Virus record (IMG/VR): IMGVR_UViG_3300022833_000034
Span: 1 to 30,716 of that record
Source of the DNA: a virus
Strand: one strand, 5' to 3'
Length of the DNA: 30,716 nt
The notes beneath the pieces were generated by a model. It ran no database searches, had not been told where the DNA came from, and worked only from the letters and a program-made list of their open reading frames with translations. This document shows positions 2,559-30,716 of the stretch, one piece after another. Positions within the stretch are counted from its first letter, which is position 1, and each line of letters starts with the position of its first letter. A program made the translations under genes and the position numbers.

Positions 2559-2731
2559 TTTATTTATTAGTATTAATTATTTGGATAATCATTGGTCTTG
2601 GAACTTGGAATCTACTTTTTACCATTTTCACTTTAAATTTAAGTTCAGTTGATAGGAAAGTACAAATGGTTGCAAAGTTCATAATCGTTATTTTTTGGCC
2701 TTTCTTTCTTGTTTATAGGGAGTTTGCATAA
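2555..2731 (+). CDS. Small membrane protein
   Basis: 58 aa with two hydrophobic segments, about residues 2-27 (Leu/Ile/Trp rich) and 40-54 (FIIVIFWPFFLVY), joined by a short polar loop. It is probably an integral inner-membrane protein with a helical hairpin. The ATG overlaps the previous stop, and the TAA shares its last base with the ATG of ninG (TAATG). No family is recognised. A membrane protein among nin-type genes could act in superinfection exclusion or host modulation, but that is only a guess from location. Confidence 0.65.
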   Translation: MIYLLVLIIWIIIGLGTWNLLFTIFTLNLSSVDRKVQMVAKFIIVIFWPFFLVYREFA

Positions 2732-3327
2732 TGCCCAACGCCAAACGTCGATGTACTAAATGCAAAACATACGAGCCCATACAGAACGGAGTAACTACAC
2801 CGTTAGGCTTTTTTTGCTCCCATCTATGCAAATTAAATTACGTTATCGATTCAGCTAATAAATTAAGAATAAAGGCGGTTGAGAAGAAAATAACAAACGT
2901 CAGGCACAAAAGGAAATTGAACGAGCTTAGAACTAGGACACAGTGGTACAACCTGCTTCAAACCGAGGTGAACAAATACGTTAGGAATAGAGACATAAAC
3001 AAACCTTGTTGCACATGCGGTACCACAAACCCAAGCATTAAATATGATGCGGGGCATTGCTTCACTAGAGCTGCCAGGCCAGATATACGGTTTAACCTCC
3101 ACAATATTCATAAGCAATGCTCTGTCAACTGCAATCAACATGGCTCAGGTATGCGTCACGAATATCAATTATTTATTACAAACAAGTACGGTCCTAATCA
3201 TTTTGAATGGCTCGAAAGTTATCACAGACCGTTAAAAGATGAATTTCCGCATTGGTCAGACATTGAGAAAGAAATAAAAAGGTATCGAATGTTAAACAAG
3301 CAAGCTGAACAGGACATAGCAGCATGA
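2731..3327 (+). CDS. ninG: NinG (Rap) recombination protein
   Basis: 198 aa. The N-terminus has a zinc-finger-like CTKC (residues 8-11) with a partner CSHLC. The C-terminal half has the NinG hallmark: CCTCG, then DAGHCF, RFNLHNIHKQC, N-x-H-x-SG and a Y-rich tail. NinG/Rap is a structure-specific HNH-like endonuclease that acts on recombination intermediates and stimulates phage recombination through the RecBCD pathway. It lies in an unbroken chain of overlapping nin-type genes upstream of the probable Q antiterminator. Length and motif order match the family well. Confidence 0.9.
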   Translation: MPNAKRRCTKCKTYEPIQNGVTTPLGFFCSHLCKLNYVIDSANKLRIKAVEKKITNVRHKRKLNELRTRTQWYNLLQTEVNKYVRNRDINKPCCTCGTTNPSIKYDAGHCFTRAARPDIRFNLHNIHKQCSVNCNQHGSGMRHEYQLFITNKYGPNHFEWLESYHRPLKDEFPHWSDIEKEIKRYRMLNKQAEQDIAA

Positions 3328-3494
3328 ACATTCAATGGTCAGAAGAAACAATTTATGATCATGTATTAGCAGGAGAGCCACCACATTGTAAAAAATGTCA
3401 GTCATACCTCATTGTGAAGCGTGGCGTTGAAAAAGGTAATCAAAGGTATGAGTGTAAAAAATGCTTATTCAAGTTTGTTGATAAAGGTTTATAA
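3324..3494 (+). CDS. Small zinc-ribbon protein
   Basis: 56 aa with two CxxC knuckles, CKKC (residues 23-26) and another CKKC about 20 residues later, followed by LFKF. This is the zinc-ribbon pattern of InsA-type transposase N-termini and related DNA-binding ribbons. It begins at an ATG overlapping the ninG stop and ends immediately before the next start at 3495. It probably binds nucleic acid or a polymerase subunit. Its place directly before the Q-like gene suggests a transcriptional role, but no function can be assigned. Confidence 0.7.
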   Translation: MNIQWSEETIYDHVLAGEPPHCKKCQSYLIVKRGVEKGNQRYECKKCLFKFVDKGL

Positions 3495-4004
3495 ATGGCA
3501 CAGGCGGCGTATGAAATGGCACGATTAACATGTAGTTCAAAATCAATTGATGGAGTAGGTGGCGGTGGTGTCCAGGTTGACAATCTAACAGTTGCAGGCG
3601 CACTGGCATTTAGGCATCCAAAAACGGGTGATAGACTATCAAAACTGGCAGAGTGTTTAGCTCGTTATGTTTATTGTGATGATATGTCTAGCAAACAGCC
3701 CGTAGTCAACACGCTATTTCTAGCAGCCAGGCGGCACCGGACAAAAATACCCCCAGCTACGCTAATGAAAATAGTCAAATCAGCGTTGGAGGAATATAAA
3801 ACACCGCACCACACTCGCAAGGGGATCGACATAGCGCAGAGTGTTAAACCAGCATCACGCGCTCACATAGCCGGTGAAATTGGCATAACTAGGCAGAGCT
3901 ATTCACACACGCATCATCATGTATATGAATCAGCGTTTGGGTTTTTAGCCGCTTTGGGTAGCGAAGCAGATCAACATATCCAGGCGGCTATGACTAATGG
4001 TTGA
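3495..4004 (+). CDS. Probable late antitermination protein Q
   Basis: 169 aa. The C-terminal half (about residues 118-165) reads as a helix-turn-helix, RAHIAGEIGITRQSYSHTHH, followed by an amphipathic helix ending in AADQHI-type residues, a layout shared with the sigma-region-4-like end of lambdoid Q proteins. The position is the other argument: last gene of the nin-like block, with a candidate late promoter followed by two terminators (5039-5264) and the lysis genes downstream. Q would load RNA polymerase at that promoter and let it read through. The N-terminus has a Gly-rich stretch. A generic DNA-binding regulator is the alternative. Confidence 0.55.
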   Translation: MAQAAYEMARLTCSSKSIDGVGGGGVQVDNLTVAGALAFRHPKTGDRLSKLAECLARYVYCDDMSSKQPVVNTLFLAARRHRTKIPPATLMKIVKSALEEYKTPHHTRKGIDIAQSVKPASRAHIAGEIGITRQSYSHTHHHVYESAFGFLAALGSEADQHIQAAMTNG

Positions 4005-4104: not shown

Positions 4105-4351
4105 GGGATGAGCCTGCAATAACGTATTTAGATAATTGACAAGATGATAAACGGAGTAGGTGATAAACCATTTATTACATTTTCCCACCTTTTTCCCACA
4201 TTGACGTATTACATTTTACCCACATAAAGTAGTTTTAAATATATTCTTTATTTGTATTGACAAAATAATAAATGAGGCTCATATTGTGTTCACGGTCTGG
4301 AACAAACCAGGCCGAACCACCAAGGGTAACTTGGAATTAAAGGAATTTATC
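4105..4351 (+). promoter_or_regulatory. Promoter region for the 4352 gene, with direct repeats
   Basis: This AT-rich stretch has no gene. It contains three TTGAC boxes (4136, 4201, 4257). The best pairings are TTGACG 4201-4206 with TAAAGT 4225-4230 (18-bp spacer) and TTGACA 4257-4262 with CATATT 4280-4285 (17-bp spacer). The phrase TATTACATTTT(A)CCCAC occurs at 4173-4188 and 4207-4223, a 34-bp-spaced direct repeat that could be a regulator site around the upstream promoter. The leader 4290-4351 ends in AAAGGA, 9 bases before the ATG. Promoter strength and the regulator are not known. Confidence 0.45.
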
Positions 4352-4822
4352 ATGAGCGCATATGTTTACAACGTAGAATCAAAAGAAATAGTGTTAGTTA
4401 TTAATGCAGAAACCAACGAAAAGTGTGAATCTATCGCTGAGGATAATGGTTATATGGGTTGTGATGAGTACGGATTGTCTTACTCTAACGAAGGGTTGTC
4501 TGAGACTAAATTTACTGATTTTCACAACGACAACGAAACAAATATTTTAGTTGATAAAATTGAAAACTCTACGTCATTAACTGAATTACGTAACTCACTA
4601 AACTCACTCGCTATCCATATCGACAATACCGATGATGAAATAAAGCTTGAAGAATATGTTGATTTAACTTCACTCCCTCATTTTGACAATGATAAAACAG
4701 AGTGGGTTGACGGTTCATTTTCATGTGATTTACACAGCCATTTAATCTATAACGATTGTGCCGGTGATGTTGCAGGTCGAGTGGGCTGGGAAATATTGCC
4801 AGTGTCTTATTTTGAAGATTAA
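4352..4822 (+). CDS. Acidic protein of unknown function, probable accessory (moron-like) gene
   Basis: 156 aa, strongly acidic (many Asp and Glu). The first 50 residues have a repeated strand-helix feel (YNVESKEIVLVINAET, then a helix and a conserved-looking GYMGCDEYGLSYS), and the C-terminal part ends in WEILPVSYFED. The ATG at 4352 is preferred to a GTG at 4286 because AAAGGA lies 9 bases upstream and the GTG has no ribosome binding site. It has its own promoter candidates and sits between the Q-like gene and the late promoter, so it may be expressed outside the early/late programme, possibly from the prophage. I recognise no function. Confidence 0.7.
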   Translation: MSAYVYNVESKEIVLVINAETNEKCESIAEDNGYMGCDEYGLSYSNEGLSETKFTDFHNDNETNILVDKIENSTSLTELRNSLNSLAIHIDNTDDEIKLEEYVDLTSLPHFDNDKTEWVDGSFSCDLHSHLIYNDCAGDVAGRVGWEILPVSYFED

Positions 4823-8078: not shown

Positions 8079-9356
8079 ATGTGGCCGTTTAGTCAGAAAA
8101 TCACAAATAATGCGCCCAGTGCTAACACCGAAGTAAAGTTTGCACTAAAATCAATCACATTGCCCGAAGCGCAGCCCAGTTGGAATCTTTTTCCACAAAA
8201 ACAGAGAGAATGGTCCACAGCAGTTGCTATTGACGAGGGTTACAACGCCTCAGCGATTGTTTACGCAGCAGTAGAGAAAAGAGCCAAGTTGATCGCTAGT
8301 GTGCCGTGGTATGCAGCAACAAAGGACGTGAACGGTAAAATTGAAAGATTGCCAGCCACTCACGCGCTGAACCAATTGATATACAGCCCTAATCTCGACC
8401 AATCATGGTACGAGGTAATGTATTCAGCTAGTCAAATGTTAGACCTCAGCGGATCTGCTTTCATGCCGGAAGTGAAAGGCGGCGCAAAGGCGTATCCAAT
8501 AGGTATTTCTGTTTTAAACTCTGAATACATAAAGATTAAACCAGGAAAAGAGCAGCTAGTTGATTTATATCAATACGTCAACGGCAATGTTACGCGCAAT
8601 ATATCACCCGATGATATGGTTCAGATAAAGCTTCCTAACCCCAAAAACCCTTACTTCGGTATGCCAGTACTAATGGCAGCAGGAAGGGCCACAGACATAG
8701 ATAGAGAAGCCGGGGATTGGCAAAAATCTAGCCTGCAAAATAGAAACATATCAGACATACACATTGAAGTACCAGAGGGTACTCAGCCGGACCAAATAGA
8801 ACAGATACAATCAAAACTACGCGAGCGCAATCAATCACCAGACAATGCAAGAGCGCCGTTGATATCTAGCGGTAAAGTTAACCAGTTATCAAGAACAGCC
8901 GTTGAAATGGACTTTACCAACTCACGCCGTTCAGTATGGACAGAAATAGCCGCATGTTTTGGCGTACCACTAGCAGCAATGGGATTTACTGAGAACGTCA
9001 ACCTAGCTAACGCTGACGCGATGATGAAACAGCTATGGCAAGACACCATCGTTCCACAGCTAGAGCTATTTAAACGACAATTAGACCATCAACTCGCTAA
9101 AGAGTTTGGTGATAACGTTTGTATTGAGTATGACCTGTCTAATGTAACAGCGTTGCAAGAATCACTGGATAGCAAACTGGCTAATGCAGAAAAGATGGAC
9201 AGGTTAGGGTTTAGTTTGGCGCAGATTAACCAACGCTTAGAGTTAGGTTTTAATGATAGCGAAATACCTGCTGACATAACTGATTTAGGCGAGAACCTAA
9301 ACGACGATGAAATTAAAATGATTTTAAAGTCTGCAAGCTATGGCAATGCTAAATAA
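8079..9356 (+). CDS. Portal protein, HK97 family
   Basis: 425 aa. NASAIVYAAVEKRAKLIASVPWYA (about residues 55-78) and the stretch around NPYFGMPVLMAAGRATDID, then GVPLAAMGF and NADAMMKQLWQDTIVPQLE are characteristic of HK97-type portals. It forms the dodecameric ring at the packaging vertex. The ATG is preceded by GAGGG at 8 bases. It follows terL after 45 bases and shares the TAATG junction with the next small gene. Confidence 0.93.
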   Translation: MWPFSQKITNNAPSANTEVKFALKSITLPEAQPSWNLFPQKQREWSTAVAIDEGYNASAIVYAAVEKRAKLIASVPWYAATKDVNGKIERLPATHALNQLIYSPNLDQSWYEVMYSASQMLDLSGSAFMPEVKGGAKAYPIGISVLNSEYIKIKPGKEQLVDLYQYVNGNVTRNISPDDMVQIKLPNPKNPYFGMPVLMAAGRATDIDREAGDWQKSSLQNRNISDIHIEVPEGTQPDQIEQIQSKLRERNQSPDNARAPLISSGKVNQLSRTAVEMDFTNSRRSVWTEIAACFGVPLAAMGFTENVNLANADAMMKQLWQDTIVPQLELFKRQLDHQLAKEFGDNVCIEYDLSNVTALQESLDSKLANAEKMDRLGFSLAQINQRLELGFNDSEIPADITDLGENLNDDEIKMILKSASYGNAK

Positions 9357-20611: not shown

Positions 20612-22830
20612 GTCTAGTACCCTATTTAGTAACAGCATTGGAAAAATCACAGGTTACAGCCGCATCAACTGGGAAAAACATTGTAGCAGGCGCGATAATT
20701 ACACTATCAACAATTGCCGGGGTTGCGGTCACTATGTTTGATAATTCAGCGGGCTCAGGCGGCAATACAGCAAAAAGCACCGACGCGAATGGCCAGAAAG
20801 TTATATTCGTAAAACCTGGAATATACAACATTACTGTAAATGGTGACGCTGAAAAAAGGATTAATATTTCTGAATTGTTAGGAGACAACAAGGGTTTACA
20901 GAGAAAGCAGCTAGAAGTTTCTGGATATTACGACCTTCTTTCCTCTGCGGTCTCAGATGATAGTTTGGTCGATGGCGGTGTAGTAATTATAAAAGACAGG
21001 GCCGATTCTGTTTGGGACGTTGTTTTGTCATCTACTGTTACATCTAATTTATATGACATATACACATCAACATCAATACCATCTTTATCTATAAAATTAC
21101 GAGAGCCTAAAATATTAACGCCTGAGCACTACGGATTAGGAGCAGGCGTAGAGGATAGAGACGGCTTTATTTATTTGCTAGCTAAAAACAAACCTATACA
21201 GGCGTTTGGTGACGAGTACATTTTAAACGGTGCAGAGTATAACGGCCCCTGCGATGTAGAATTTGGAAAAAATACGATTATAAGAAACAACCAAACCAGC
21301 GGCCCAAGAAGATCCTCGTTAAAATTCTTTGGTTTGAAAGACGAAACAAAAATAGATGTAACAGTTGCTACGCTGGGATCACTAGCGGATACGATAACAG
21401 TATCCAGTGCTGGATCGTTTAGCGTTGGTGACACATGTCTGCTAGAGGAAAATGCAGCAAATAAGCCCGAGATTAATTACGGGCAGGGAAACCTAACTCA
21501 GGACGCAAATTACCGCGAATTTAATACAATATTGTCAATCAACGGAAACGACATACAGTTTGAGGAATACCTCAGATTTCCGTATCTAGTTGCTAATGAT
21601 TTAAAGATACAAAAAGTATTTTTTAATGAAAACGCTCATGTAAAAGGAGGAATTTACACTGGCGGCAGCGGCAGCGGTGGTGGTGTAACTCATGAGTTAT
21701 GCAGGTACAGCTCTACGTTTATGGTAAAGGGTAGAGGTATATCTGAATCAGATAGGAATGGTGGTACGGTTTCGTTTTTCCAAGAATGCTGGGAATGCTC
21801 CCGCGGAGGATTAGACTCAATTCACACGTTGTTTGGTAGTCGTGCGTTAAAAAATCAGTCTTGTATTAACTACGATATAAAATCAAAAAGAACAAGCAAC
21901 GGTGGCGTAATAGTCTCGGGTGATACGTTCTGTATGTACGATTTAATAGTCCAAGACTCAACTGGAGACGATAATGGCGACGGAGTTGGGCTGAGTAACG
22001 GGGCGCGTTTTAACACATTCGGCAGCATTATTCTGTCGGGTTCCAGATGTTATGGGATGTGGTCGCATGAGTTTTGCGACGATAACACGTTTGAATCTTT
22101 TGTAAGCAACTCAGGCATAACAGTAGGCGTTTATCTTTTCGGTGATAGAAATAAGTTTTCGAATGTCAAAGTCGAAAATCATCCTACAGGAATGGCAATA
22201 TACGGTAATGATAATACTGTAGCATCAGCTGACGTTGCGGCTAAAGGCACGGCGTTAATAATGACGGCGATCGGGCAAAGCGGAAACAAAGTGTCAGGTA
22301 AGTTTATTTCTACAGGTACAGACGCAAATAGTAAAGATTTGCTGCTAAGTGATTTGGGACCAGATAACGAAATAGATATTTTGGGCGGTGCTAGGGGTAT
22401 GACATATGCAGCGGGCAGAAGCCCAAATCATGATAGTACTGTCATCGTTAGCGGTGTAAATCCCTACGTATTAAAAATTGATAGGCACACTAAAGGATTT
22501 ACTTGGTCTAGTAGAAATGTCACAGCATCATCGCTAGTTGATTTAAAAATACCTGTTAGAGGCGGCACTGACGGACTTGGTCAGTTTGTATCTACAGCAA
22601 GTGGAGACGCTGCAAAAATATATAAAATCATGCTAAAAACTGAGACTACTTTAGCAAACTCATACTCAGAGTACGTGATAACTGATAGACAAGGCGCGTT
22701 ATCTATTGAAACAGTACTGGAGGGAACAGGCGTATTTGCTCCGCGTTTAGTTATAACTAGCGGCGTTGTTCAGCTAAGAGTATCTAACAACTCAGTTATT
22801 TTTGTGTCTGTAAATTTAGACCAGTTTTAA
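20608..22830 (+). CDS. Tailspike-like protein with beta-helix domain
   Basis: 740 aa, last gene of the late operon; the ATG overlaps the previous stop (ATGA). The N-terminal about 90 residues (VPYLVTALEKSQVTAASTGK, then a short beta domain) look like a virion attachment module. From about residue 170 (PEHYGLGAGVEDRDGFIYLL) it has the entry typical of pectate-lyase-type spikes. The middle shows the short repeating strand-turn pattern of a right-handed parallel beta-helix (NTFGSIILSGS, DNTFESFVSNSGI, NKFSNVKVENHPTG, NTVASADVAAKG). The C-terminal 150 residues are beta-rich and may trimerise. It would bind or cleave a surface polysaccharide; the active-site residues cannot be picked out by eye. 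Confidence 0.8.
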   Translation: MSLVPYLVTALEKSQVTAASTGKNIVAGAIITLSTIAGVAVTMFDNSAGSGGNTAKSTDANGQKVIFVKPGIYNITVNGDAEKRINISELLGDNKGLQRKQLEVSGYYDLLSSAVSDDSLVDGGVVIIKDRADSVWDVVLSSTVTSNLYDIYTSTSIPSLSIKLREPKILTPEHYGLGAGVEDRDGFIYLLAKNKPIQAFGDEYILNGAEYNGPCDVEFGKNTIIRNNQTSGPRRSSLKFFGLKDETKIDVTVATLGSLADTITVSSAGSFSVGDTCLLEENAANKPEINYGQGNLTQDANYREFNTILSINGNDIQFEEYLRFPYLVANDLKIQKVFFNENAHVKGGIYTGGSGSGGGVTHELCRYSSTFMVKGRGISESDRNGGTVSFFQECWECSRGGLDSIHTLFGSRALKNQSCINYDIKSKRTSNGGVIVSGDTFCMYDLIVQDSTGDDNGDGVGLSNGARFNTFGSIILSGSRCYGMWSHEFCDDNTFESFVSNSGITVGVYLFGDRNKFSNVKVENHPTGMAIYGNDNTVASADVAAKGTALIMTAIGQSGNKVSGKFISTGTDANSKDLLLSDLGPDNEIDILGGARGMTYAAGRSPNHDSTVIVSGVNPYVLKIDRHTKGFTWSSRNVTASSLVDLKIPVRGGTDGLGQFVSTASGDAAKIYKIMLKTETTLANSYSEYVITDRQGALSIETVLEGTGVFAPRLVITSGVVQLRVSNNSVIFVSVNLDQF

Positions 22831-22860
22831 ATTACGGGGTTTGATCCCCGCCACCTAATT
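22831..22860. other. Candidate attP core resembling a tRNA/tmRNA 3' end
   Basis: CGGGG (22835-22839) and CCCCG (22846-22850) pair around TTTGAT, followed by CCACCTAATT. This resembles the T-arm and acceptor end of a tRNA or tmRNA gene, the common target of P4/CP4-57-type integrases, though the loop is 6 rather than 7 bases so it is not an intact T-arm. It lies upstream of an integrase remnant, where attP is normally found. No T-run follows, so it is not a clear terminator for the tailspike gene. Confidence 0.45.
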
Positions 22861-23134
22861 TAACTATTGTGTCGCAATTGTGTCGCAATTATCAATAACC
22901 TGATTGCAGGTCAGTAATAACGGTAATGTTTCATAATCGTGCCAGGTATATACTAGGCGTGTCCATAGGTGTCCCATTTACACGTATGGACATACTTAAT
23001 CTCTCTTAGCCCTTTCAAAATAAACCTCCTAAAACTGAATTACTGTCCATAGCTGTACATGGATGAATTGCAGCTAGTTAAAAATTGTGTCAGCATTGTG
23101 TCGAAATTACAACAATGATGTGTCGAAGATAACA
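22861..23134. repeat. Noncoding arm-site-like repeats upstream of the integrase remnant
   Basis: No gene is seen in this stretch. ATTGTGTCGCA occurs twice in tandem, 11 bp apart (about 22865-22887). Related TTGTGTC boxes recur near 23085-23105 and GTGTCG again at about 23120. A second motif, TGTCCATAGSTGT, is at 22960-22972 and 23044-23056, and its half GTCCATA is inverted as TATGGAC at 22985-22991. Two kinds of repeats flanking an attP-like sequence fit integrase arm sites and excisionase sites. AATTGCGACACA, the complement of the first motif, is also found at the edge of the origin iterons. Confidence 0.5.
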
Positions 23135-23284
23135 ATGCCGCTTACTAATACTAAACTAAAAGCCATGTATGGCAAAAAGAAAAAGTCTACCACACAAATT
23201 CCTGATCGTGATGGGCTGGTCGCTAGTTGTGGATTGTCTGGACACGATTAGGGTTGTATTTTTTATCACGTTTCTTAACTGTAC
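23135..23284 (+). pseudogene. int: Truncated tyrosine integrase, N-terminal remnant
   Basis: The ATG at 23135 begins MPLTNTKLKAMYGKKKKST and continues IPDRDGLVASCGLSG before TAG at 23249-23251. This matches the N-terminal arm-binding domain of P4/CP4-57-type integrases (M-x-L-T-D-x-K-[IL]-x(n)-D-x-x-GL-x-x-x-V). After a one-base shift at about 23243 the reading TIRVVFFITFLN continues the family pattern for a dozen residues, then similarity ends where the convergent methyltransferase gene begins. The catalytic domain (R-H-R-Y) is absent. No other integrase or recombinase is present in the window. Confidence 0.7.
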
Positions 23285-23704
23285 TCATAAATTGCCCTTA
23301 TCTAATAATTCTTTACGATTAACCCAAGTAAATTTTGCATTACCGAGCATTTTTGGAGAAAACACAAAAAACACGCTGCCTTTATTATTTCCTGACCTTG
23401 GCACTCCATCCTCTAAGAATGCGATGCGCCCCTTCGTGACAAAACGTATCTCTGTTGCGTACTCAACTGCTTTGGCAAACCACTTAACAGATGGATCTGC
23501 CATAACTAGCATTACTGAACCAATTCCTTTGCTGGCTTGCTCAATAGCCTTATCAACCCAGGGTGTAATGTGACTATACGGGGGGTTTATCCATACGTAG
23601 GGCGATAAAATACCGAAATGCTGTAGGCTCTCGAACCAATCCAAAGACAGAGAATCTTCCTCTTTGGTCCAGTAAGTTGAGTGTGAAATGCTCAGTAATT
23701 GCAT
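23285..23704 (-). pseudogene. DNA N6-adenine methyltransferase (phage Dam type), probably damaged
   Basis: 139 aa versus about 170 or more for the family. The catalytic motif is present in VWINPPYSHITPWVDKA, and the C-terminal part (VMLVMADPSVKWFAKAV, EIRFVTKGRIAFLE, GSVFFVFSP) is normal. The N-terminus starts abruptly at STYWTKEEDSL. What looks like the missing N-terminal piece (DGLINAITEHFTL) lies in another frame within 23690-23801. The connecting segment usually containing LDxAA and N-A-x-C is missing. This suggests a frameshift plus a small deletion, so activity is doubtful. It is the last gene of the leftward operon. Confidence 0.7.
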
Positions 23705-23801
23705 TAATCAAACCGTCACTAGCAAGCCTGGTTGCAGCCAAGACGGTTTCTATCGTCTCGACTGTTTCCATGCCTTGTATTAATGTGATTGAAGGGTTCA
23801 T
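23574..23801 (-). CDS. 75-aa frame, probable detached N-terminus of the methyltransferase
   Basis: The ATG directly follows the stop of the AP2 gene (GATTAGATG), so it is translated by coupling. Residues 1-45 contain METVETIETVLAATRLASDG and LINAITEHFTL, which fit the opening of phage Dam-type methyltransferases. After that the frame runs antisense-free into residues (GRFSVFGLVREP) that overlap the true methyltransferase frame and look like out-of-frame reading. It is most simply the 5' end of a gene whose reading frame was broken near 23690; a separate small protein remains possible. Confidence 0.45.
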   Translation of the reverse strand: MNPSITLIQGMETVETIETVLAATRLASDGLINAITEHFTLNLLDQRGRFSVFGLVREPTAFRYFIALRMDKPPV

Positions 23802-24107
23802 CTAATCCGCAAAATCACGTTTATTTTCTCTGGCCTGCGCTTCTTTCATGCTTTTAAGCTTCGCCACATCTACAGAAAGATTGTTTTTAAAGTCTTCGAG
23901 ATAACTATTGTCTCGTTTAACCTTTGCTTCAAGCCAAGCAACACCAGCATCAATATTGGTGGGAAAACTACCAAGAAATGTGTTTTTCCCATAAATAGAT
24001 AACCACGTTTGGAATTTATCCCTATTATTCCTTACACCAGGCAAAAGGTTGTCGGAAGGTGCTAAAACTCTTGGCCTCAAGTTTGCGATTGTGATTTTAT
24101 TAGCCAT
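23802..24107 (-). CDS. AP2-domain DNA-binding protein
   Basis: 101 aa. Residues 23-62 carry the AP2 pattern: PGVRNNRDKFQTWLSIYGKN, then LGSFPTNIDAGVAWLEAK (G-V-x3-R-x-K-[WF]-x-A/W-x-I-x(2)-G-K-x3-LG-x-F-x-T-x2-A). In phages AP2 domains are usually attached to HNH homing endonucleases; here there is no HNH motif and the C-terminus is a charged helix. It would bind DNA through its three-strand sheet. It sits within the recombination operon, its ATG overlapping the exonuclease stop. Confidence 0.75.
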   Translation of the reverse strand: MANKITIANLRPRVLAPSDNLLPGVRNNRDKFQTWLSIYGKNTFLGSFPTNIDAGVAWLEAKVKRDNSYLEDFKNNLSVDVAKLKSMKEAQARENKRDFAD

Positions 24108-25921
24108 TACGCAGCCTCACCACTTGCATACTGACGAGCCATTGCTAGAGCATGTTTCTTGGGCTCTATTATTATTTTTGTTTCTTCTTGCCCCGCTAGA
24201 TAACCGGCTGCGAAAGCGGCTTCAATTAACGATGGCAAACGGCCAAAAACACTCTTAGTTAAACCGTTAGCGGTGTTAGGAGTAGACGCAGTAGCAACAG
24301 GAGTATCTACAGACTCACTGGTTGTATGGGTGTTGCCAGTGCGTTGGGTTAAGCGTTCGTCACTGATACCTCTTTCGTATGCGCCCTCAGATTGCCTTCT
24401 GGCTTCTAACTGTTCAGCATCCTTGGTTGCTTGAGCATCTAAAAAATATGCCTCAATTTCATCAGACGTTTTCTTGGCCTTTGCATTTCTTAAACTGGCT
24501 TCTTCGTCAAGTTTGGATTTTTCAGCCGCAGCCTTAGCAACATTTTCAGCATTAACCTTAGCTTGTTCAGCCGCGGCTTTAGCAGTTGCCTTGGTTTCTT
24601 CTTCTTTGCGTATCTGTTCACGTTGAGAGTCCAAGCGCAATTGCTCGGCTTCTTTGTGTTCAGCTATGCGAGTTTTAACCATGGCTTGAAAATCATCGTT
24701 AGCTTTGAATGCAATGTTGCGCCAATCTGAAAACAAGAATCTGTACTTTTTGTGATGCTCTATAAACGATGAGTTTTCTTGAGCAATTTCAAACCAACCA
24801 TTAAGTTCAATTTTGATTTTAGATACGGCTGTATCTGCGGCATTTTGGAGTGAGTCAATCATCTTCTTGCCTTTCATGGCATCACTAATTGAAATGTCAC
24901 TTACAGGTGGTAAAACATCAAGCTTTTTAAAAATACTGGTATGGCCAAACACTTCATTCTCTGCCAAAACAATTATTCTTTCACGCAACTCTGCTTTACG
25001 CGCCTTAACAAGCTTTGATTCGCGTAGTCTTGATTGGCTGAGTTGCTCTTTTATTTCACGTAAGTCATTAACGAATGCGCTAATGTCGGCAGACTCACTT
25101 AGCGCCAACTCACAAGCAGCATCACAAGCTGCCTCACCACGGCTAAATATTTTTTGCCTGGCTTCTGCATCAGCGAAGTCTTGATCTGTTTCTGGCGTAC
25201 CGTTACTGCTTTTTATCAAAGCAAGTGCTTTAAGGTGGAAATCATTCAGGTTAGACTTTAACGCCATACCATTCATTTGATATTTAATAGCCGGTAAGTC
25301 GCTTATTACTTCTGCTACAACCTTTTCAGCCTTAGCAGTAGGAACATAAGTGGATAGGTCAATTGCAAACTGCTTCCAGCTTGCTATCAGCGCAGAACGC
25401 AATGCAGGGTCGCTTCTATATTCCATGTCAGCCCAATTATCTTTGGTGCCATCTGAGCAAACAAATACAGCATATTCAGCACCAGACAAAAGCAATTGTT
25501 GTTCTAGTTGGTAGGCGTAACTCAACGGTAAATTTCCATCTTTGACGGCTTTCATCAACTTAGCGTTATTTAATTTATGTTCAAAAATAACGTCTTGCAT
25601 CATGGTTAAACCGTCAAAACTAGCCAGCAATGGCAAACCTTCAACTTCTAGCGTTCCTGTAGCTGGAAACAAGTCCTCACTCAACATATCAGCCTCAACA
25701 ATAATTCGCGCCATAGCCTCTGTTTCATGGCCCTTATCGAATATTTTTTGCTGAAATTCTGATACTTCCTTAACTTCGCCCGTTGCTTTCATATGTAAAA
25801 GCTCTGAGCGCGTCATAAACTTTGACTCGCCCATTACTGCTGGCGCTTCACTTGCTGTAAAGTGCTTGGCGCGAAGTTCTAGCCACTCACTTGACCCTTG
25901 AGATACTGAAATTATGTTCAT
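24107..25921 (-). CDS. YqaJ-family exonuclease with long C-terminal coiled-coil extension
   Basis: 604 aa from the ATG at 25921, chosen because AGGAGGA lies 6-8 bases upstream and the ATG overlaps the recT stop. Residues 1-200 are a YqaJ/lambda-exo-type nuclease: SSEWLELRAKHFTASEAPAV, FDKGHETEAMAR, and catalytic Asp103, Glu114 and Lys116 (SFDGL...VIFEHK). It resects double-strand ends 5'-3' for the partner annealase. Lambda exo is 226 aa; the remaining 400 residues here are helical, with a DUF1351-like middle and a Lys/Ala/Glu-rich coiled coil at about 420-510, ending in a short globular-looking tail. The extension may be a fused accessory protein. Confidence 0.85.
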   Translation of the reverse strand: MNIISVSQGSSEWLELRAKHFTASEAPAVMGESKFMTRSELLHMKATGEVKEVSEFQQKIFDKGHETEAMARIIVEADMLSEDLFPATGTLEVEGLPLLASFDGLTMMQDVIFEHKLNNAKLMKAVKDGNLPLSYAYQLEQQLLLSGAEYAVFVCSDGTKDNWADMEYRSDPALRSALIASWKQFAIDLSTYVPTAKAEKVVAEVISDLPAIKYQMNGMALKSNLNDFHLKALALIKSSNGTPETDQDFADAEARQKIFSRGEAACDAACELALSESADISAFVNDLREIKEQLSQSRLRESKLVKARKAELRERIIVLAENEVFGHTSIFKKLDVLPPVSDISISDAMKGKKMIDSLQNAADTAVSKIKIELNGWFEIAQENSSFIEHHKKYRFLFSDWRNIAFKANDDFQAMVKTRIAEHKEAEQLRLDSQREQIRKEEETKATAKAAAEQAKVNAENVAKAAAEKSKLDEEASLRNAKAKKTSDEIEAYFLDAQATKDAEQLEARRQSEGAYERGISDERLTQRTGNTHTTSESVDTPVATASTPNTANGLTKSVFGRLPSLIEAAFAAGYLAGQEETKIIIEPKKHALAMARQYASGEAA

Positions 25922-26679
25922 GCTGCGTCCTCCTGGTTGCAAGTTCTTACTTGATGCTCTAACTCGTCTGATAACTCATACTTTGATTTGATCATAGCGA
26001 CTAAATCATCAGGGTCTTTCCCAGCGTCTAATGCTGATGCCCACTTATTAGCCTGCTTATTGAATGCGTCTTGGGTAAACTCAGGTTTGCTAATAGCTTT
26101 CTGTTTTTCTGGCTCACTAGATTTATTAATTGGGTTAAGTTCGCGCTCAATGGGCAAATCCTCGGCTTCCTCAACTGAAATTAATCCAGCCAATGCGTCA
26201 GCAAATTGATTCCGCAATGCAAATCCTCTCGCCCTCATTGCTAACATGCGCTTGGGGTATTGCGTCCAAGGCCCAGCTTTGCCCCAAAGTTTTGCCGCTT
26301 TTGCATCGACCTCACTGAATTTTTGAGTGTGCTTTTCGCCACCTTTACGATGAACGATACAAGTTGCAGTCATGCTAGATTCGTCAAAAACCTCGTTTAT
26401 CCCTCCAAACTTAGGGTGGTTTTGTACAAGAGCCATTAACGCATCACCATAGATTGAGGGGCGACCGTTTATTACTGCGATGTTTTGAATGGCTTGAAGT
26501 GGGTTAAGTCCGACTTCATTACCCATCATCATTGCAACGAGCGTATCTTCTGGCTTGCCTTTGTAACTAGTTGGGCAAAGCTGCGAGTTGCATATCATGG
26601 TTGCAAGATTCATTGCCTCGTTTAAGTTTGCCGGTGTTAATGCAAACCCTGTACTTGCTACTGCTGTTGAATTGCTCAC
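25918..26679 (-). CDS. recT: RecT-family single-strand annealing protein
   Basis: 253 aa. The core motif MNLATMICNSQLCPTSYKGK, then GNEVGLNPLQAIQNIAVING, RPSIYGDALMALVQNHP and YPKRMLAMRARGFALRNQFAD is the standard RecT signature. It anneals complementary strands exposed by the YqaJ exonuclease encoded immediately downstream (4-bp overlap). The C-terminal 80 residues are Lys/Pro/Glu-rich and variable, as is usual. Its start is coupled to the small gene upstream. Confidence 0.95.
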   Translation of the reverse strand: MSNSTAVASTGFALTPANLNEAMNLATMICNSQLCPTSYKGKPEDTLVAMMMGNEVGLNPLQAIQNIAVINGRPSIYGDALMALVQNHPKFGGINEVFDESSMTATCIVHRKGGEKHTQKFSEVDAKAAKLWGKAGPWTQYPKRMLAMRARGFALRNQFADALAGLISVEEAEDLPIERELNPINKSSEPEKQKAISKPEFTQDAFNKQANKWASALDAGKDPDDLVAMIKSKYELSDELEHQVRTCNQEDAA

Positions 26680-26807
26680 AACGTCACCTCACTTTTGGAA
26701 AATGTTAAAACCCATCCAGAGGGTCTACCCTGGACAACTAACTGCAAACCCAAACGCCTTAATATGCGTTTAGCCTGCTGCGCTTTGTGTAGCTTTTTGA
26801 ATGTCAT
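26676..26807 (-). CDS. Small basic protein upstream of recT
   Basis: 43 aa from the ATG at 26807, which has GGAG about 10 bases upstream; the open frame extends farther 5' but without a good start. The product is rich in Lys, Arg and Gln (KKLHKAQQAKRILRRLGLQL) then forms strands (VVQGRPSGWVLTFS). The stop overlaps the recT ATG by 4 bases. No family is recognised. Confidence 0.55.
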   Translation of the reverse strand: MTFKKLHKAQQAKRILRRLGLQLVVQGRPSGWVLTFSKSEVTL

Positions 26808-26893
26808 TCTTTTAAACTCCGTACTGTTGTCTACTAACCTCTGCGTAGAAACTTCGGTTAGTAGGTGGTTGAGCCCTTTAATTAGGGCTGTTT

Positions 26894-27118
26894 TTAAGCT
26901 GCTTCTGAAACACACAACATGCTGTAAATTAAATCTAGCGTTGCTTGGTCAGGTATTAGCTGAATGATTTGCTCCGCTGTTAGCTGCTCGAAAACATGGT
27001 GCAAGTTGACACCCTCCAGCTTTGCTGAAACTTTCCCGCTATTGACTGTCAAACCTTCAATACTGCGGCACTCAATAGCAAAATCGCTATAAGTACCTTC
27101 TGTGTTTCTAATTGCCAT
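26894..27118 (-). CDS. 74-aa protein of unknown function
   Basis: Starts with an ATG coupled to the upstream stop (one-base overlap at 27118). It has a strand-rich first half (AIECRSIEGLTVNSGKVSAKL) and an acidic helical second half (VFEQLTAEQIIQLIPDQATL). No signal or membrane segment. Between the antirepressor and recT, in the place where lambda carries gam, kil and cIII, so a host-interaction role is possible but there is no sequence support for a specific one. Confidence 0.6.
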   Translation of the reverse strand: MAIRNTEGTYSDFAIECRSIEGLTVNSGKVSAKLEGVNLHHVFEQLTAEQIIQLIPDQATLDLIYSMLCVSEAA

Positions 27119-27507
27119 TATTGACTCCCTACATTCGCTGCTTCTTCCGTTGCCCAGGTATTTGCTAACGCCTCAATTGCCAACGTTCTGACTGCTCGAC
27201 GAAGTGGTATAACTTCAAACTCATTCTTAGTAGTCATTAGCTGATAGTGCATAGCCTCGATATTTTTGCCATCAAACGTTGCGTCAACAATATCCTGCTG
27301 ATCTAAACAGTTGACCCTACTAGTTGGGTAAACAAGCTGGTAAAACCCGCCAGTGGTGAGAGCGTTGGTTATTTCAGAGCGAAAAAACTCGAAGTTTTCC
27401 AGATCACTGTTTTCCGGCTCAGTTGTACTGACTAACTCAACGCTAGTGCCAAAAATAGCGCTAAAACTTGAGTTTAGAATTTGATTTGATTTGATTGCTG
27501 CGTTCAT
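27118..27507 (-). CDS. 129-aa protein of unknown function
   Basis: The frame ends one base into the next gene and starts 3 bases after the antirepressor stop. The product is acidic in the middle (TTEPENSDLENFEFF), with YQLVYPTSRVNCLDQQDIVDATF and a C-terminal helix VIPLRRAVRTLAIEALA. No catalytic or metal-binding motif is visible. It shares the leftward operon with the recombination genes. Confidence 0.6.
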   Translation of the reverse strand: MNAAIKSNQILNSSFSAIFGTSVELVSTTEPENSDLENFEFFRSEITNALTTGGFYQLVYPTSRVNCLDQQDIVDATFDGKNIEAMHYQLMTTKNEFEVIPLRRAVRTLAIEALANTWATEEAANVGSQ

Positions 27508-27509
27508 AA

Positions 27510-28277
27510 TTAAGCTACCTTGCTGAAAAATTTGTTTTGAAAGTACATCTGGCCCTTTGCTGTAATAAGCGTTTTAAACCAAAGTTGAATTTCACCGTTC
27601 TGATCTTTGCGAGTTTTCTCTTGAAGTTTAAATAAACCTTGATCAACGTACTTCTGGTAAGGTCTATTTCTTTGACTAAAACTATCCATCACATAACTTC
27701 CTTCACGAAGCATGGCGAAAAGCTTGTTTTGTCCTGTGCCAACTGATTTGGCAAAGTCTCTGATACAAACGCTATTGATTGAATCGTTAACCGCTTCGGC
27801 AAACGCTATTTTGGGTTGTGCGGCTTCAAGCTTTTCTGCCAAGTCAGCAGCTAAACGTAATGACTCAGCAAAACTCTTAGGCATATTCTGTTGTGATTGG
27901 TAGGTGCCAGTCTTACGAATAGAAGGAAGGACTTCACCAACCACCCAATCTTCAAACTTTTCAGCCTCTGGCATTTTCGAACGCATGATTAAACGGTAAA
28001 CGTCACGTTCTGGAATTATTTGATATTGAGTTACGGATTGATTGTGAGAATAACCAGCTGCTCTACATGCCTTGTAATCACTGGATACTAGCAATTCGCT
28101 ACCACCTATAAGTTTAACGTTCTTACAATGGTCTTGAATCGCTTCTGACGTATTTGCATAACCAAGTAGATCAGCAACATCCTTTGCAATAAACATTGGC
28201 TCACCGTTTTGATCAATTACTCGGACTTCACTTGATTTGAATTTGAAAGGAATTACGTTGCTGGTTGGTGTACTCAT
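27510..28277 (-). CDS. Antirepressor, Bro-N plus KilAC domains
   Basis: 255 aa. Residues about 14-115 form a Bro-N domain: SEVRVIDQNGEPMFIAKDVA, DLLGYANTSEAIQDHC, YQIIPERDVYRLIMRSKMPE, EDWVVGEVLPSIRKTG. Residues about 155-250 are a KilAC domain: CIRDFAKSVGTGQNKLFAML, QRNRPYQKYVDQGLF, TLITAKGQMYF. Phage antirepressors of this build bind and inactivate the CI-type repressor. It is the first gene of the leftward operon, and its promoter carries two copies of the predicted CI operator, so it is itself under repressor control: a switch in which loss of repression produces more antirepressor. Confidence 0.88.
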   Translation of the reverse strand: MSTPTSNVIPFKFKSSEVRVIDQNGEPMFIAKDVADLLGYANTSEAIQDHCKNVKLIGGSELLVSSDYKACRAAGYSHNQSVTQYQIIPERDVYRLIMRSKMPEAEKFEDWVVGEVLPSIRKTGTYQSQQNMPKSFAESLRLAADLAEKLEAAQPKIAFAEAVNDSINSVCIRDFAKSVGTGQNKLFAMLREGSYVMDSFSQRNRPYQKYVDQGLFKLQEKTRKDQNGEIQLWFKTLITAKGQMYFQNKFFSKVA

Positions 28278-28308
28278 GTTGATGCCTTAATTAAGTAACT
28301 TGCCAATC

Positions 28309-28346
28309 AGTGTACAAGATATTCTTGTTATGGCAAGTAAAACTTG
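28309..28346 (-). promoter_or_regulatory. Leftward promoter pL with two repressor operators (OL-like)
   Basis: Read on the minus strand: -35 TTGCCA (28336-28331), 16-bp spacer, -10 TACACT (28314-28309), with start near 28302 and the antirepressor ATG at 28277. Two CAAG-N5-CTTG operators lie over it: 28315-28327 (CAAGATATTCTTG, filling the spacer) and 28334-28346 (CAAGTAAAACTTG, overlapping the -35). The same motif occurs three times at OR. Binding at either site would block polymerase. Confidence 0.75.
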
Positions 28347-28364
28347 TTGTTTTTATCTTAGGCA

Positions 28365-28389
28365 TAAAAAAACCCGCTATTAACGGGTT
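28365..28389 (-). terminator. Terminator of the repressor transcript
   Basis: On the minus strand AACCCG (28389-28384) pairs with CGGGTT (28376-28371) around a 7-base loop and is followed by a run of six T. It lies 67 bases after the repressor stop and just before the leftward promoter, so it insulates the repressor transcript from the antirepressor operon. Confidence 0.8.
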
Positions 28390-28455
28390 AATTATTATTA
28401 AGTTAAGTTATCGCCAAACACTAGACGAATAAAAAACCTTTCCTATTATATTGAC

Positions 28456-29064
28456 TCACTCTGCATCTACCATAATGTCTGGATGCTCCAAAGCGTTAAA
28501 GCTATTCAGCCTCAACCTGCTTGCGCCAGGCTTATACAGACGCATTACTTTTAACAAACCTTCATAAAGAACTGCGTACACTCCTCCATCAACTGCTGAG
28601 ATTTCTTTTGTATCTATCACAACCATGTCGCCATCAAAAAGCCTTGGCTCCATGCTGTTTCCTGATATAAATACACATAAGGAATAACTTTCATCTACCC
28701 CACACCCGTCAAAAAGAGACTTTGGAAGCTTGATAACTTTCCCTTTTCTTAAACTTAAATCTCCATCCGTGACTACGACACTCATAAGAACTGACACCTC
28801 TACTTCTTCATTATCTTCGAGTAATCCAACAGGACTTACATTTGTGTTAACACATCCATCGCCACCCGCTATAAGCGTTAATTCGTTGATTTTTAAAGCG
28901 CGACACAGGGCGCTTCTATTTTTACCTAACACGTCATTTCTGCCGCGCTCCAAGTTTTGTACAGCGGTAACACTGACTTTTACAACCTCTGCTAATTTGT
29001 TTTGTGAATAACCAATACCTTTTCTGTAGTGCTTAATTCTCAAACCCTGATCTATTAGCCGCAC
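28456..29064 (-). CDS. CI-like repressor, XRE HTH plus S24 peptidase domain
   Basis: 202 aa from a GTG at 29064 with GGAG 8 bases upstream. The N-terminal HTH spans about residues 8-65 (YSQNKLAEVVKVSVTAVQNL). The C-terminal half is an S24/LexA-like domain with catalytic Ser137 in ISGNSMEPRLFDGDMVVID and Lys172 in GLLKVMR, 35 residues apart as in LexA. The Ala-Gly or Cys-Gly cleavage dipeptide expected about 35-40 residues before Ser137 is not seen; that region reads SVVVTDGDLS. It should bind CAAG-N5-CTTG at OL and OR, holding the lysogenic state and preventing expression of cro and the antirepressor. Confidence 0.9.
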   Translation of the reverse strand: MRLIDQGLRIKHYRKGIGYSQNKLAEVVKVSVTAVQNLERGRNDVLGKNRSALCRALKINELTLIAGGDGCVNTNVSPVGLLEDNEEVEVSVLMSVVVTDGDLSLRKGKVIKLPKSLFDGCGVDESYSLCVFISGNSMEPRLFDGDMVVIDTKEISAVDGGVYAVLYEGLLKVMRLYKPGASRLRLNSFNALEHPDIMVDAE

Positions 29065-29102
29065 GTTGCGATCTCCAAGTAATTACAATCCAACCTAAAG
29101 TA

Positions 29103-29172
29103 CAAGCATTGCTTGCTTAACAAAAGACTAGAATAACTTGCTATTTGTGTATTTATGGGCAAGAATAACTTG
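29103..29172. promoter_or_regulatory. OR operator region with three CAAG-N5-CTTG sites
   Basis: Operators: 29103-29115 (CAAGCATTGCTTG, perfect dyad), 29128-29140 (CTAGAATAACTTG, one arm mismatch) and 29160-29172 (CAAGAATAACTTG). They occupy the space between the divergent cI and cro starts, as OR3, OR2 and OR1 do in lambda. The centres are about 25 and 32 bp apart. The pR and pRM promoters must lie here but no pair of hexamers is convincing enough to name; TAGAAT (29129-29134) and AAGAAT (29161-29166) are -10-like. The spacing of the right pair is wider than in lambda. Confidence 0.75.
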
Positions 29173-29192
29173 TATAGAATTAAGGGGTGGTT

Positions 29193-29420
29193 ATGAAGGG
29201 CATAGAGAAGGCCGTAAAAAATGCAGGTGGCGCGGGAAACCTCGCTGAACAATTGGGTGTTTCTTATGAGGCTGTCAGGCTTTGGCGGAAACTTGGATTT
29301 GTACCTCAGAAAAGTGTTTTTGATGTTGAAGATAAAACTGGCGTGTCTTGTTTTGAGCTTAATCCAACAGTTTACCCTGTCAACAGGTTCATTGATGTGA
29401 GCCTCAAACAAGCCAGTTAG
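29193..29420 (+). CDS. Cro-like HTH protein
   Basis: 75 aa from the ATG at 29193, preceded by AAGGGG at 5 bases; an in-frame GTG at 29187 is less likely because it lies on the ribosome binding site. Residues 10-35 (GGAGNLAEQLGVSYEAVRLW) are a helix-turn-helix of the YdaS/Cro type, followed by the conserved-looking GFVPQKSVFDVEDKTGVSCF and ELNPTVYP. As first gene of the rightward operon it probably binds the same operators as the repressor and shuts off cI expression during lytic growth. Confidence 0.85.
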   Translation: MKGIEKAVKNAGGAGNLAEQLGVSYEAVRLWRKLGFVPQKSVFDVEDKTGVSCFELNPTVYPVNRFIDVSLKQAS

Positions 29421-29442
29421 CAATTTAAACAGAGAGTTTATT

Positions 29443-29622
29443 ATGTATAACAATCGAAACTACGTTAGAGAAAACGCCATAAAAGTGAGATTTAGCAATG
29501 AAGAACTAGAAGCGATTAGTGCCCTAGCAAGTTTGTCACGTAAACAGAAAGCTGCGTTCATTTATGATGCCGTTATGCGTCAGATTGCGATTGAAATTAA
29601 TTATAAACAACGTGGGGTGTAA
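29443..29622 (+). CDS. Ribbon-helix-helix (Arc-like) small protein
   Basis: 59 aa: a short strand NAIKVRFSNEE, helix LEAISALASLS, turn, and helix QKAAFIYDAVMRQIAIEI, the order of the Arc/MetJ ribbon-helix-helix fold that binds DNA as a dimer. AGAGAG lies about 8 bases before the ATG. It directly precedes another probable RHH protein (the next ATG follows the stop with no gap). It occupies the place of cII in lambda, so a regulatory role in the lysis-lysogeny decision is possible. Confidence 0.7.
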   Translation: MYNNRNYVRENAIKVRFSNEELEAISALASLSRKQKAAFIYDAVMRQIAIEINYKQRGV

Positions 29623-29832
29623 ATGAAGGGTCTGGAAAGTGTCATGTTTTCTGATATGCAAATCAAAGAATTAACAGAAGCGGCTAATCATCGAGGCGTA
29701 ACCGTCAGTGAGTTAGTCGAGTCTAAAACCAGAGAGTTTTTAAACCAGGTCAGTGGCAGAAAAGAGCTGAAAAAGTCCGTAATTTTAACTTTTAGGCCCC
29801 TCAAAAGCACCCATTATATTGGTGTTAGATGA
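29623..29832 (+). CDS. Second small ribbon-helix-helix-like protein
   Basis: 69 aa, starting directly after the stop of the previous gene with GGGG upstream. SVMFSDMQIKELTEAANHRG and VTVSELVESKTREFLNQV give strand-helix-turn-helix, again RHH-like; the C-terminal tail (KKSVILTFRPLKS) is basic. It may be a partner or paralogue of its neighbour. Function unknown. Confidence 0.55.
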   Translation: MKGLESVMFSDMQIKELTEAANHRGVTVSELVESKTREFLNQVSGRKELKKSVILTFRPLKSTHYIGVR

Positions 29833-29846
29833 TCATGTGCCAATAG

Positions 29847-29893
29847 TGATGTTATCAATCACATCAGTTTGAAGGCCGATTAAGTTCGGTTTT
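29847..29893 (+). promoter_or_regulatory. Inverted repeat and weak hairpin after the RHH genes
   Basis: TGATGT (29847-29852) and ACATCA (29861-29866) form a dyad 8 bases apart, which could be a regulator site. Next, AAGGCCGA (29872-29879) can pair with TCGGTTTT (29886-29893), with two G-T pairs and a short loop, ending in four T: a weak terminator of the tR1 type. It would attenuate transcription into the replication genes. Confidence 0.4.
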
Positions 29894-29968
29894 CAGGTGC
29901 TCCACACGCGACTCTATGTAGATGCGTTAAACGTTCGAGATAACAGGGACTCGGCGAATTCAATTCAA

Positions 29969-30085
29969 TAAAAAACCCCGGTCAATGCGCTAGAACTACG
30001 GGGTTAATTACCAACGGATTAAGTATGAGCAAATTAGAAAGAAAAATCAACATTCAAATTATTAATAAAGGTGTTCAGCTATCAA
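29969..30085 (-). ncRNA. Predicted OOP-like antisense RNA
   Basis: On the minus strand there is a good sigma-70 promoter: -35 TTGATA (30085-30080), 16-bp spacer, -10 AATAAT (30063-30058), start near 30051. The transcript would end at an intrinsic terminator, AACCCCG (30005-29999) pairing with CGGGGTT (29980-29974) and a T-run to 29969, giving about 80 nt. Lambda OOP RNA is 77 nt, leftward, and lies beside the O gene. This RNA would cover the ribosome binding site and start of the 64-aa gene at 30025. Span given includes the promoter; the RNA itself is about 29969-30051. Confidence 0.55.
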
Positions 30086-30219
30086 CAGCAAACGGCTGCA
30101 ACACAACGTCTATGACACGTAAAGAGCTGCAAGTGTTAATAAGTGACGCTTTGATCGCTGAACGTGTCCTGGGCGATGCTGAGAGAGCTAGAAAAACAGT
30201 GTTACGGGCGGTGAGCTAA
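30025..30219 (+). CDS. 64-aa protein of unknown function upstream of the initiator
   Basis: Basic and helical: KLERKINIQIINKGVQLSTA, then MTRKELQVLISDALIAERVL and a basic end. It does not have the HTH of lambda CII. The stop overlaps the initiator ATG (TAATG), so initiator translation may be coupled to it. Its start and Shine-Dalgarno region are complementary to the predicted antisense RNA, so control of this gene would pass to replication. Confidence 0.65.
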   Translation: MSKLERKINIQIINKGVQLSTANGCNTTSMTRKELQVLISDALIAERVLGDAERARKTVLRAVS

Positions 30220-30716
30220 TGAAACTGGCTCTAGTGAACAAAAACAATCAGGTTAAGAGAGATATGCCAAGTGAGAATGGTTTCGTGATCCTTTGGAGAG
30301 ACATTAACAAGCAGTCTTGGTCTAATGAATCGTTGCCCTACGCAGTCTTCACCAAGCTTTTAACTCAAGTCCAGCATAAGCCTTACGTAGCAGAAGTAAA
30401 TGGTATTAAGACACCATTACAAGCTGGTGAAATAGCGATGTCATACGACAAGATAACTCAATTATTTAAAGAGATAAAAGACAAATCTCACGCTAGAAGA
30501 ATCATTAAAAAATTCAAATCTTTGTCGCAAATTTACACCAGAGAAATTAAAAAAGGCAACGTGAATTATGGGTTTGTAGTCGGTTTTGTAGGGTGGGAAA
30601 AGTGGCAAAATTGCGACACACCCTCCGACACACCAAGCGACACACCTAAAGCCACGAATATAAAGGCTTTAAGCACTATACGCGACACACCCTCCGACAC
30701 ACCAAGCGACACACCT
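30219..30716 (+). CDS. Replication initiator (lambda O-like), 5' part; continues at base 120 of the window
   Basis: ATG at 30219, overlapping the previous stop. The frame is open to the window end (166 codons), the last 119 bases duplicating 1-119. The joined protein (30219-30597 plus 1-581) is 319 aa. Residues 1-126 look like a winged-helix DNA-binding domain of the phage replication protein type: ENGFVILWRDINKQSWSNES, LQAGEIAMSYDKITQLFKEI, SHARRIIKKFKSLSQIY, then VNYGFVVGFVGWEKW. The iteron-coded linker follows directly. The initiator is followed by a DnaB-like helicase rather than a loader. Annotated in two parts only because the circle was cut inside the gene. Confidence 0.8.
   Translation, partial: MKLALVNKNNQVKRDMPSENGFVILWRDINKQSWSNESLPYAVFTKLLTQVQHKPYVAEVNGIKTPLQAGEIAMSYDKITQLFKEIKDKSHARRIIKKFKSLSQIYTREIKKGNVNYGFVVGFVGWEKWQNCDTPSDTPSDTPKATNIKALSTIRDTPSDTPSDTP
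30598..30716. repeat. Terminal redundancy, identical to 1-119
   Basis: The 119 bases are the same as the first 119 of the window, beginning with the unique sequence AAAAGTGGCAAAATTG before the iterons. A frame crosses the junction without interruption. This is most simply an assembly overlap of a circular or circularly permuted molecule; a true direct terminal repeat of that exact length inside a gene is less likely. Confidence 0.9.

Follow-up and report, generated by a model that had tools for sequence, protein, structure and literature searches.

A phage S24 repressor lineage with changes at both the cleavage site and the catalytic-lysine position

S24-type regulators that do not cleave themselves have been described both in phages and in cells. 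The CI repressor of coliphage 186, which is paired with the antirepressor Tum, is described as having no canonical catalytic base and an incomplete nucleophile segment (PMC12984324). Rep021, the repressor of mEp021, is reported to be without the Ala-Gly site, and the group to which it belongs, the mEpimmI coliphages, not to be induced by UV (PMC11893012). LexA of Synechocystis PCC 6803 is described with a Gly-Gly dipeptide and an exchange of the serine for Asp (PMC3091678, PMC4759255). Among antirepressors, FsoA of Fels-1 is reported to be encoded in the left operon under control of its own prophage's repressor, to act on Gifsy-2 (GtgR) and to be dispensable for Fels-1 induction (PMC3121763).

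The locus analysed here shares features with each of these systems. The window, as we call the whole stretch of 30,716 bases that was analysed, ends in an exact repeat of its first 119 bases (30598–30716, plus strand) and therefore closes into a circle. Its repressor ORF (28456–29064, minus strand; 202 residues, GTG start) is located between a leftward operon, which begins with a gene that we call ant, and a rightward Cro/YdaS-like gene. Like 186 CI as described, the repressor appears to combine a LexA-like C-terminal fold with an active site that does not work; unlike 186 CI, however, it retains Ser137 along with most of the S24 signature, and, in contrast to Tum, the antirepressor-like product encoded next to it is a Bro-N/KilAC protein, with no LexA box nearby. 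With Rep021 it has in common that an S24 CI-type repressor lacks Ala-Gly, and a KilAC-like protein is reported for the Rep021 group as well (PMC11893012), but Rep021 is described as retaining its catalytic site, whereas here the lysine is lost too. As described for Synechocystis LexA, a natural S24 regulator has a changed cleavage dipeptide and has lost a catalytic residue, yet that protein is a cellular regulator, while in our case a phage repressor carries Asp-Gly and a Lys-to-Met exchange. AlpR (L018) and the PrtR-annotated phi2 repressor (L004), of the phrog_4 type, show the same HTH and S24 architecture, and are 31% and 34% identical, respectively, to the full-length protein of the sister contigs introduced below; unlike the window lineage, they keep Lys174 and a Gly-Gly or Ala-Gly bond. 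A search of the open-licence literature for an S24 phage repressor that is dead on both counts found no case, Rep021 of mEp021 being the nearest. Hence, while non-cleaving S24 regulators were already known, what is new here is that lysine and cleavage site are both lost in one phage repressor.

Cleavage site and active site of the repressor

A sequence-only reading of this DNA had assigned the ORF to an S24 repressor. Its coordinates and strand are borne out, and Pfam recognizes the expected domains, HTH_3 with 29.4 bits (cut-off 23) and Peptidase_S24 with 48.4 bits (cut-off 23.3). For a comparison at the residue level, we aligned the window repressor with 94 homologues, taken as stop-to-stop ORFs from phage, plasmid and IMG/VR loci (95 rows in total). 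Ser137, which lies within the motif GNSMEP (codon 28654–28656, minus strand) and had been proposed as the nucleophile, is invariant in 95/95 rows, and so is Gly101. The residue preceding this glycine, in the P1 column, is Ala in 48 rows, Cys in 37, Gly in 5, Asp in 3, Pro in 1 and Thr in 1. At the position where 85 of the 95 aligned sequences have Ala-Gly or Cys-Gly, the window has Thr-Asp-Gly-Asp (residues 99–102, codons 28759–28770, minus strand), just as had been noticed, with Asp100-Gly101 at the place of the scissile bond. Compared to lambda CI and LexA, this repressor family has two extra residues before the scissile bond; the LexA register would yield the dipeptide Val98-Thr99, which is not Ala/Cys-Gly either and is equally unsuited.

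In LexA, the active-site pair is S119/K156, with a serine-to-lysine spacing of 37 residues, and the same spacing is found in 94 of the 95 rows, the remaining one having 38. Counted from Ser137, the catalytic-lysine column therefore falls on residue 174 (codon 28543–28545, minus strand), which is Lys in 92 rows and Met in three, including the window. The sequence-only reading had instead taken Lys172 (codon 28549–28551, minus strand) for the catalytic lysine with LexA-like spacing; this residue is in the wrong column, which holds Arg in 86 of the 95 rows, adjoining the Lys174 of those same rows. The three sequences with Asp at P1 are also the three with Met174, namely the window and the sister contigs L001 and L002, which are nearly identical and constitute a single lineage. 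A wider set of 203 rows, in which some contigs are repeated, has Lys in 197, Met in five and a gap in one row of this column; of the Met rows, three come from loci of a single contig and the others are the window and L001. The gap traces to a spurious antisense ORF in L057, and that row was left out when distinct cores were counted. Lys174 is found in 137 of 139 distinct cores, Asp-Gly occurs solely alongside Met, and none of the 137 cores with Lys174 has Asp at P1. In addition, the loop between Gly101 and Ser137 comprises 36 residues in the window as well as in L001 and L002, compared to 40–42 in the other 92 rows. A further difference, Leu at residue 38 of the window where both sisters have Trp, was considered as a second lesion and dismissed, because Leu is common in that column (22/95).

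Cleavage is blocked when A84/G85 or A111/G112 are changed, and a structure exists for LexA with the exchange G85D. For the catalytic lysine, the exchange K156A is described as rendering LexA non-cleavable (PMC3834820). With Asp at P1 and Met in place of the catalytic lysine, the alignment thus supports a loss of self-cleavage twice over, and does so more strongly than the sequence-only reading, which had already suggested such a loss. We would consequently expect the repressor of this lineage to be deaf to RecA.

The predicted structure is consistent with this assignment of the cleavage position. When the 218-residue sister protein is modelled with AlphaFold (38-row alignment, pLDDT 81.2), residues 88–217 match LexA of T. 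maritima (3k2z_A: Z 18.2, rmsd 1.6, 123 residues), followed by E. coli LexA and then by phage 186 CI (2fkd_A: Z 13.1, rmsd 3.2, 110 residues). Alignment on LexA and CI, which had been proposed earlier as a check, places D100-G101 between the predicted strands 87–99 and 102–114, at the tip of a LexA-type hairpin; Lys172 and Met174 are both modelled on strand 170–177, and the final strand spans residues 204–214. Residues 1–68 match the N-terminal domain of P22 c2 (Z 13.1), which means that A66-G67 is located where the DNA-binding domain ends. A place of these two residues in the cleavage loop would, according to the sequence-only reading, have spoken against a loss of cleavage; the model puts them in the N-terminal domain and outside that loop, and a hidden cleavage site at A66-G67 was therefore rejected. 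In sequence searches, the window protein had no match in the PDB, and a profile built from the alignment retrieved almost exclusively N-terminal domains from it. The sister protein returned 67 stretches from genome contigs, with no relative among them, and a small alignment returned 30 relatives, none of them close.

Truncation of the window copy and the integrase region

A TGA at 28456–28458 (minus strand) interrupts the repressor frame in the window; beyond it, the frame continues VNIIGKVFYSSSVWR up to a TAA. This position is a sense codon in both sisters (L001 and L002), which encode 218 residues, corresponding to a full frame of 28408–29064 (minus strand) in window coordinates. The stop removes the last 16 residues, that is, the conserved final β-strand, in which Gly208 is found in 94 and Phe211 in 91 of the 95 rows; this strand is missing in only one row, that of the window. 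Over 1862 shared bases, the window and L001 differ at nine positions, three of them within the repressor gene. Both sisters have full-length ORFs with the HTH and the final strand intact; intact copies of the repressor gene do exist. An AlphaFold model of the 202-residue window protein (pLDDT 74) retains the remainder of the fold, but was left out as evidence of damage because such predictions do not measure stability. Reassignment of the TGA codon was rejected, since other window genes terminate at TGA in the normal way. The sole other contig found of the same phage, L212, stops short of the repressor, leaving the stop with no second witness, and a scan of viral contigs, in which near-identical records may be omitted, yielded no contig with its exact 30-base context.

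The record also has no match to a tyrosine integrase (PF00589), a resolvase (PF00239) or phrog_1 at any position, while each of these searches was positive in at least 13 of 14 control genomes. An integrase probably survives only as a stub of 28 codons, contained in a 38-codon ORF at 23135 (23135–23251, plus strand): its residues 1–28 align without gaps to residues 1–28 of the integrase of Salmonella phage SEN34 (12/28 identical), after which the sequence diverges and reaches a stop. In a search of 50,697 phage records with the stub, the SEN34 integrase (two accessions) was the sole match, with an E-value of 0.7, for which reason we call this identity probable; Pfam assigned no family to the stub, and tblastn against plasmids gave no match. 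The stub junction recurs in L212 (3300035698_002954), which is 100% identical to window positions 22377–25167 (2791 bases). The sister contig G002, by comparison, encodes a complete but different 401-residue tyrosine integrase, and four of the five other ant-bearing records searched contain a tyrosine integrase, the fifth, with none, being the 4.3-kb fragment of L001.

Four direct TGTGTCG repeats, at 22868, 22879, 23097 and 23119, lie just upstream of the stub and could be arm-type integrase sites. Iterated CGACACA units, which have a core in common with these repeats, are found across the junction of the circle, at 17–185 and 30614–30713, probably within a replication gene, and are possible origin iterons.

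Together, the truncated repressor and the probable integrase stub suggest a loss of lysogeny. The circular window phage is probably a derivative in which this capability is already gone or being given up, and it may no longer form stable lysogens.

Operators and the linked Ant protein

The 15-bp palindrome ACAAGnnnnnCTTGT occurs with at most one mismatch at four sites in the window, starting at 28314, 28333, 29102 and 29159, all of them in the two spacers that flank the repressor gene. The left pair (OL) consists of ACAAGATATTCTTGT (28314–28328) and GCAAGTAAAACTTGT (28333–28347) and overlaps, with the former, a promoter-like site for ant. On the right (OR), ACAAGCATTGCTTGC (29102–29116) and GCAAGAATAACTTGT (29159–29173) are accompanied by a weaker site with two mismatches (29127–29141). 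Shuffling the two spacers 3000 times gave a mean of 0.012 sites and a maximum of one, and 15 shuffles of the whole window gave 0–3 sites with at most one mismatch; as the motif was drawn from the very sites that were then counted, the site count is descriptive, and at two mismatches the window as a whole has no more sites than chance would give (18 observed vs 18.2 expected). The candidate operator sites are conserved in L001 and L002. At window position 29107, in the centre of the first OR palindrome, both sisters have a base other than that of the window, and the spacer between repressor and ant contains a terminator-like hairpin (28371–28389, minus strand).

Judging from this arrangement, the repressor in its intact sister form should bind ACAAGnnnnnCTTGT-type palindromes at OL and OR. 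It would thereby silence the left operon, with ant (27510–28277, minus strand) followed by a 129-aa ORF, a 74-aa ORF, RecT and a YqaJ-type exonuclease (24107–27507, minus strand), as well as the right operon, headed by the Cro/YdaS-like regulator (29187–29420, plus strand). Of 33 differences to L002 across 2631 bases, 21 fall into the 129-aa ORF (27118–27507), a locally divergent stretch that may stem from recombination.

Both domains of Ant are recognized by Pfam, Bro-N with 87.5 bits and ANT (KilAC) with 95.2 bits, and relatives are found in eight other contigs, of which two are partial (L001, L110). In L105, Ant is identical to that of the window from residue 6 on. The L105 repressor has an intact LAAG site, keeps the lysine and carries an unrelated N-terminal domain, while its S24 domain is 46% identical to that of the window lineage over 141 residues; its ant gene is located downstream of a TTGACA promoter and is directly preceded by a repeat of a 21-base element from the cro-repressor spacer of that phage. 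L107 has a 56% identical Ant next to another cleavable repressor, with the palindrome AGGATATCCT upstream of ant, and L106 has a 71% identical Ant in 10.8 kb that contain no S24 homologue. Thus, as a comparison of these loci with the window illustrates, ant accompanies cleavable, non-cleavable and S24-less neighbours, and where both sites can be compared it is apparently under the resident repressor's operators. As to further neighbours, L105 has a 169-aa gene without a Pfam match (4287–4796) between its cleavable repressor and the shared ant, which is absent from the window, and in L106 a 128-aa protein, again without a Pfam match, and a weakly HipA-like kinase gene stand in place of an S24 repressor (2608–3749). 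A Bro-N or KilAC match accompanies the S24 homologue in 23 of 198 loci, counting repeated contigs, and 20 of these 23 keep both an intact Ala/Cys-Gly and the lysine.

Control of ant by LexA was considered as well and rejected, as no box with at most one mismatch is found nearby. The region 27423–30716 contains no match to CTGTn8ACAG at this threshold, a consensus that may not be that of the host; the whole window has 18 such matches vs 11.6 expected, the single exact one lying inside the portal gene at 9135. In this respect ant differs from the LexA-controlled antirepressors 186 Tum and Gifsy GfoA/GftA, with the proviso that the host's own box may deviate from the one searched. It rather resembles fsoA of Fels-1, as described, in that it is located in the left operon and apparently behind the operators of the resident repressor, with any action in trans being putative here.

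Accounting for a non-cleaving repressor

The explanation that we favour, and consider probable, is that of a LexA/CI-type repressor with HTH, S24 fold and Ser137 that does not cleave itself, given Asp at P1 and Met at the lysine position, and that is accompanied by an Ant which is not the sensor; in the window, the copy is cut short and an integrase stub is left. RecA filaments would not inactivate such a repressor directly, and in the window genome the stop would take away the last strand of its S24 domain, with only the probable stub remaining of the integrase. Self-cleavage could conceivably persist if Lys172, on the same face of its strand, acted as a displaced base and a D-G or V-T bond were cleaved. 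In SipA, a lysine two residues before the base position is described as partly filling the site, but SipA is likewise described as being without peptidase activity (PMC12984324); considering also that P1 Asp is never seen together with Lys174 and that most relatives have Arg172 in addition to Lys174, this reading seems highly improbable. Alternatively, the repressor of the whole lineage might be decaying, with Asp100, Met174, the short loop and the stop all reflecting relaxed selection in a phage turning virulent, as the stop, the probable stub and the lack of an integrase in the record would allow. The sisters, however, keep full-length ORFs with HTH and final strand, the larger sister contig has a tyrosine integrase, and the S24 domain is still conserved at the level seen against L105, which makes a general decay unlikely. 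Somewhat more weight, though well short of an even chance, can be given to the possibility that the in-frame TGA arose as an error of sequencing or assembly, or is a minor variant, and that the window encodes a 218-residue protein like its sisters. The sense codon in two out of two sister contigs and the failure of the scan, with its possible omission of near-identical records, to find the stop context speak for an error. Against it stands that the phage also lacks an integrase; as the junction is present in a second contig, L212, the loss of lysogeny functions is not limited to one base.

The sequence-only reading had paired the repressor with an antirepressor controlled at OL, which would take over as the induction route. 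The arrangement is borne out, with repressor-type palindromes on both sides of the repressor gene and the Bro-N/KilAC gene behind the left pair; its extension to a cis-acting induction route of this prophage strikes us as rather improbable. Both Ant domains are present, ant is the first gene behind OL, and antirepressor-driven induction of non-cleaved repressors is described as established for Gifsy, 186 and N15 (PMC3121763). Those antirepressors are LexA-controlled, though, whereas no box with at most one mismatch is found at 27423–30716, and the Ant of L105, as well as the related one of L107, resides beside a cleavable repressor, in line with the 20 of 23 loci (repeats included) with an intact site and lysine. 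Moreover, ant is itself placed behind the repressor's operators, so that prior derepression would be needed, and from this position Ant by itself cannot sense damage. A role for Ant, if it is an antirepressor, as an amplifier of derepression or in trans, on or from other phages, fits better. A specific version of the latter, which we regard as a long shot, is that the dead S24 domain is kept as a module for dimerisation and Ant docking, while a heteroimmune phage of the L105 type senses damage, expresses the shared Ant through its own OL and thereby induces the non-cleavable prophage in trans; the 71% identical Ant of L106, with no S24 repressor in the 10.8 kb seen, argues against it.

With respect to the explanation favoured above, the window genome would resemble a temperate phage caught in the process of losing lysogeny, and the lineage raises the question of how a prophage with such a repressor leaves the lysogenic state. 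Phages of the L105 type, heteroimmune and with the same Ant next to an intact repressor, provide a ready comparison for asking whether KilAC proteins act on S24 domains. As a natural phage repressor that has a LexA-type fold and its nucleophile, but neither the scissile residue nor the lysine, the protein described here would allow what the S24 domain does structurally to be told apart from what it does in catalysis.
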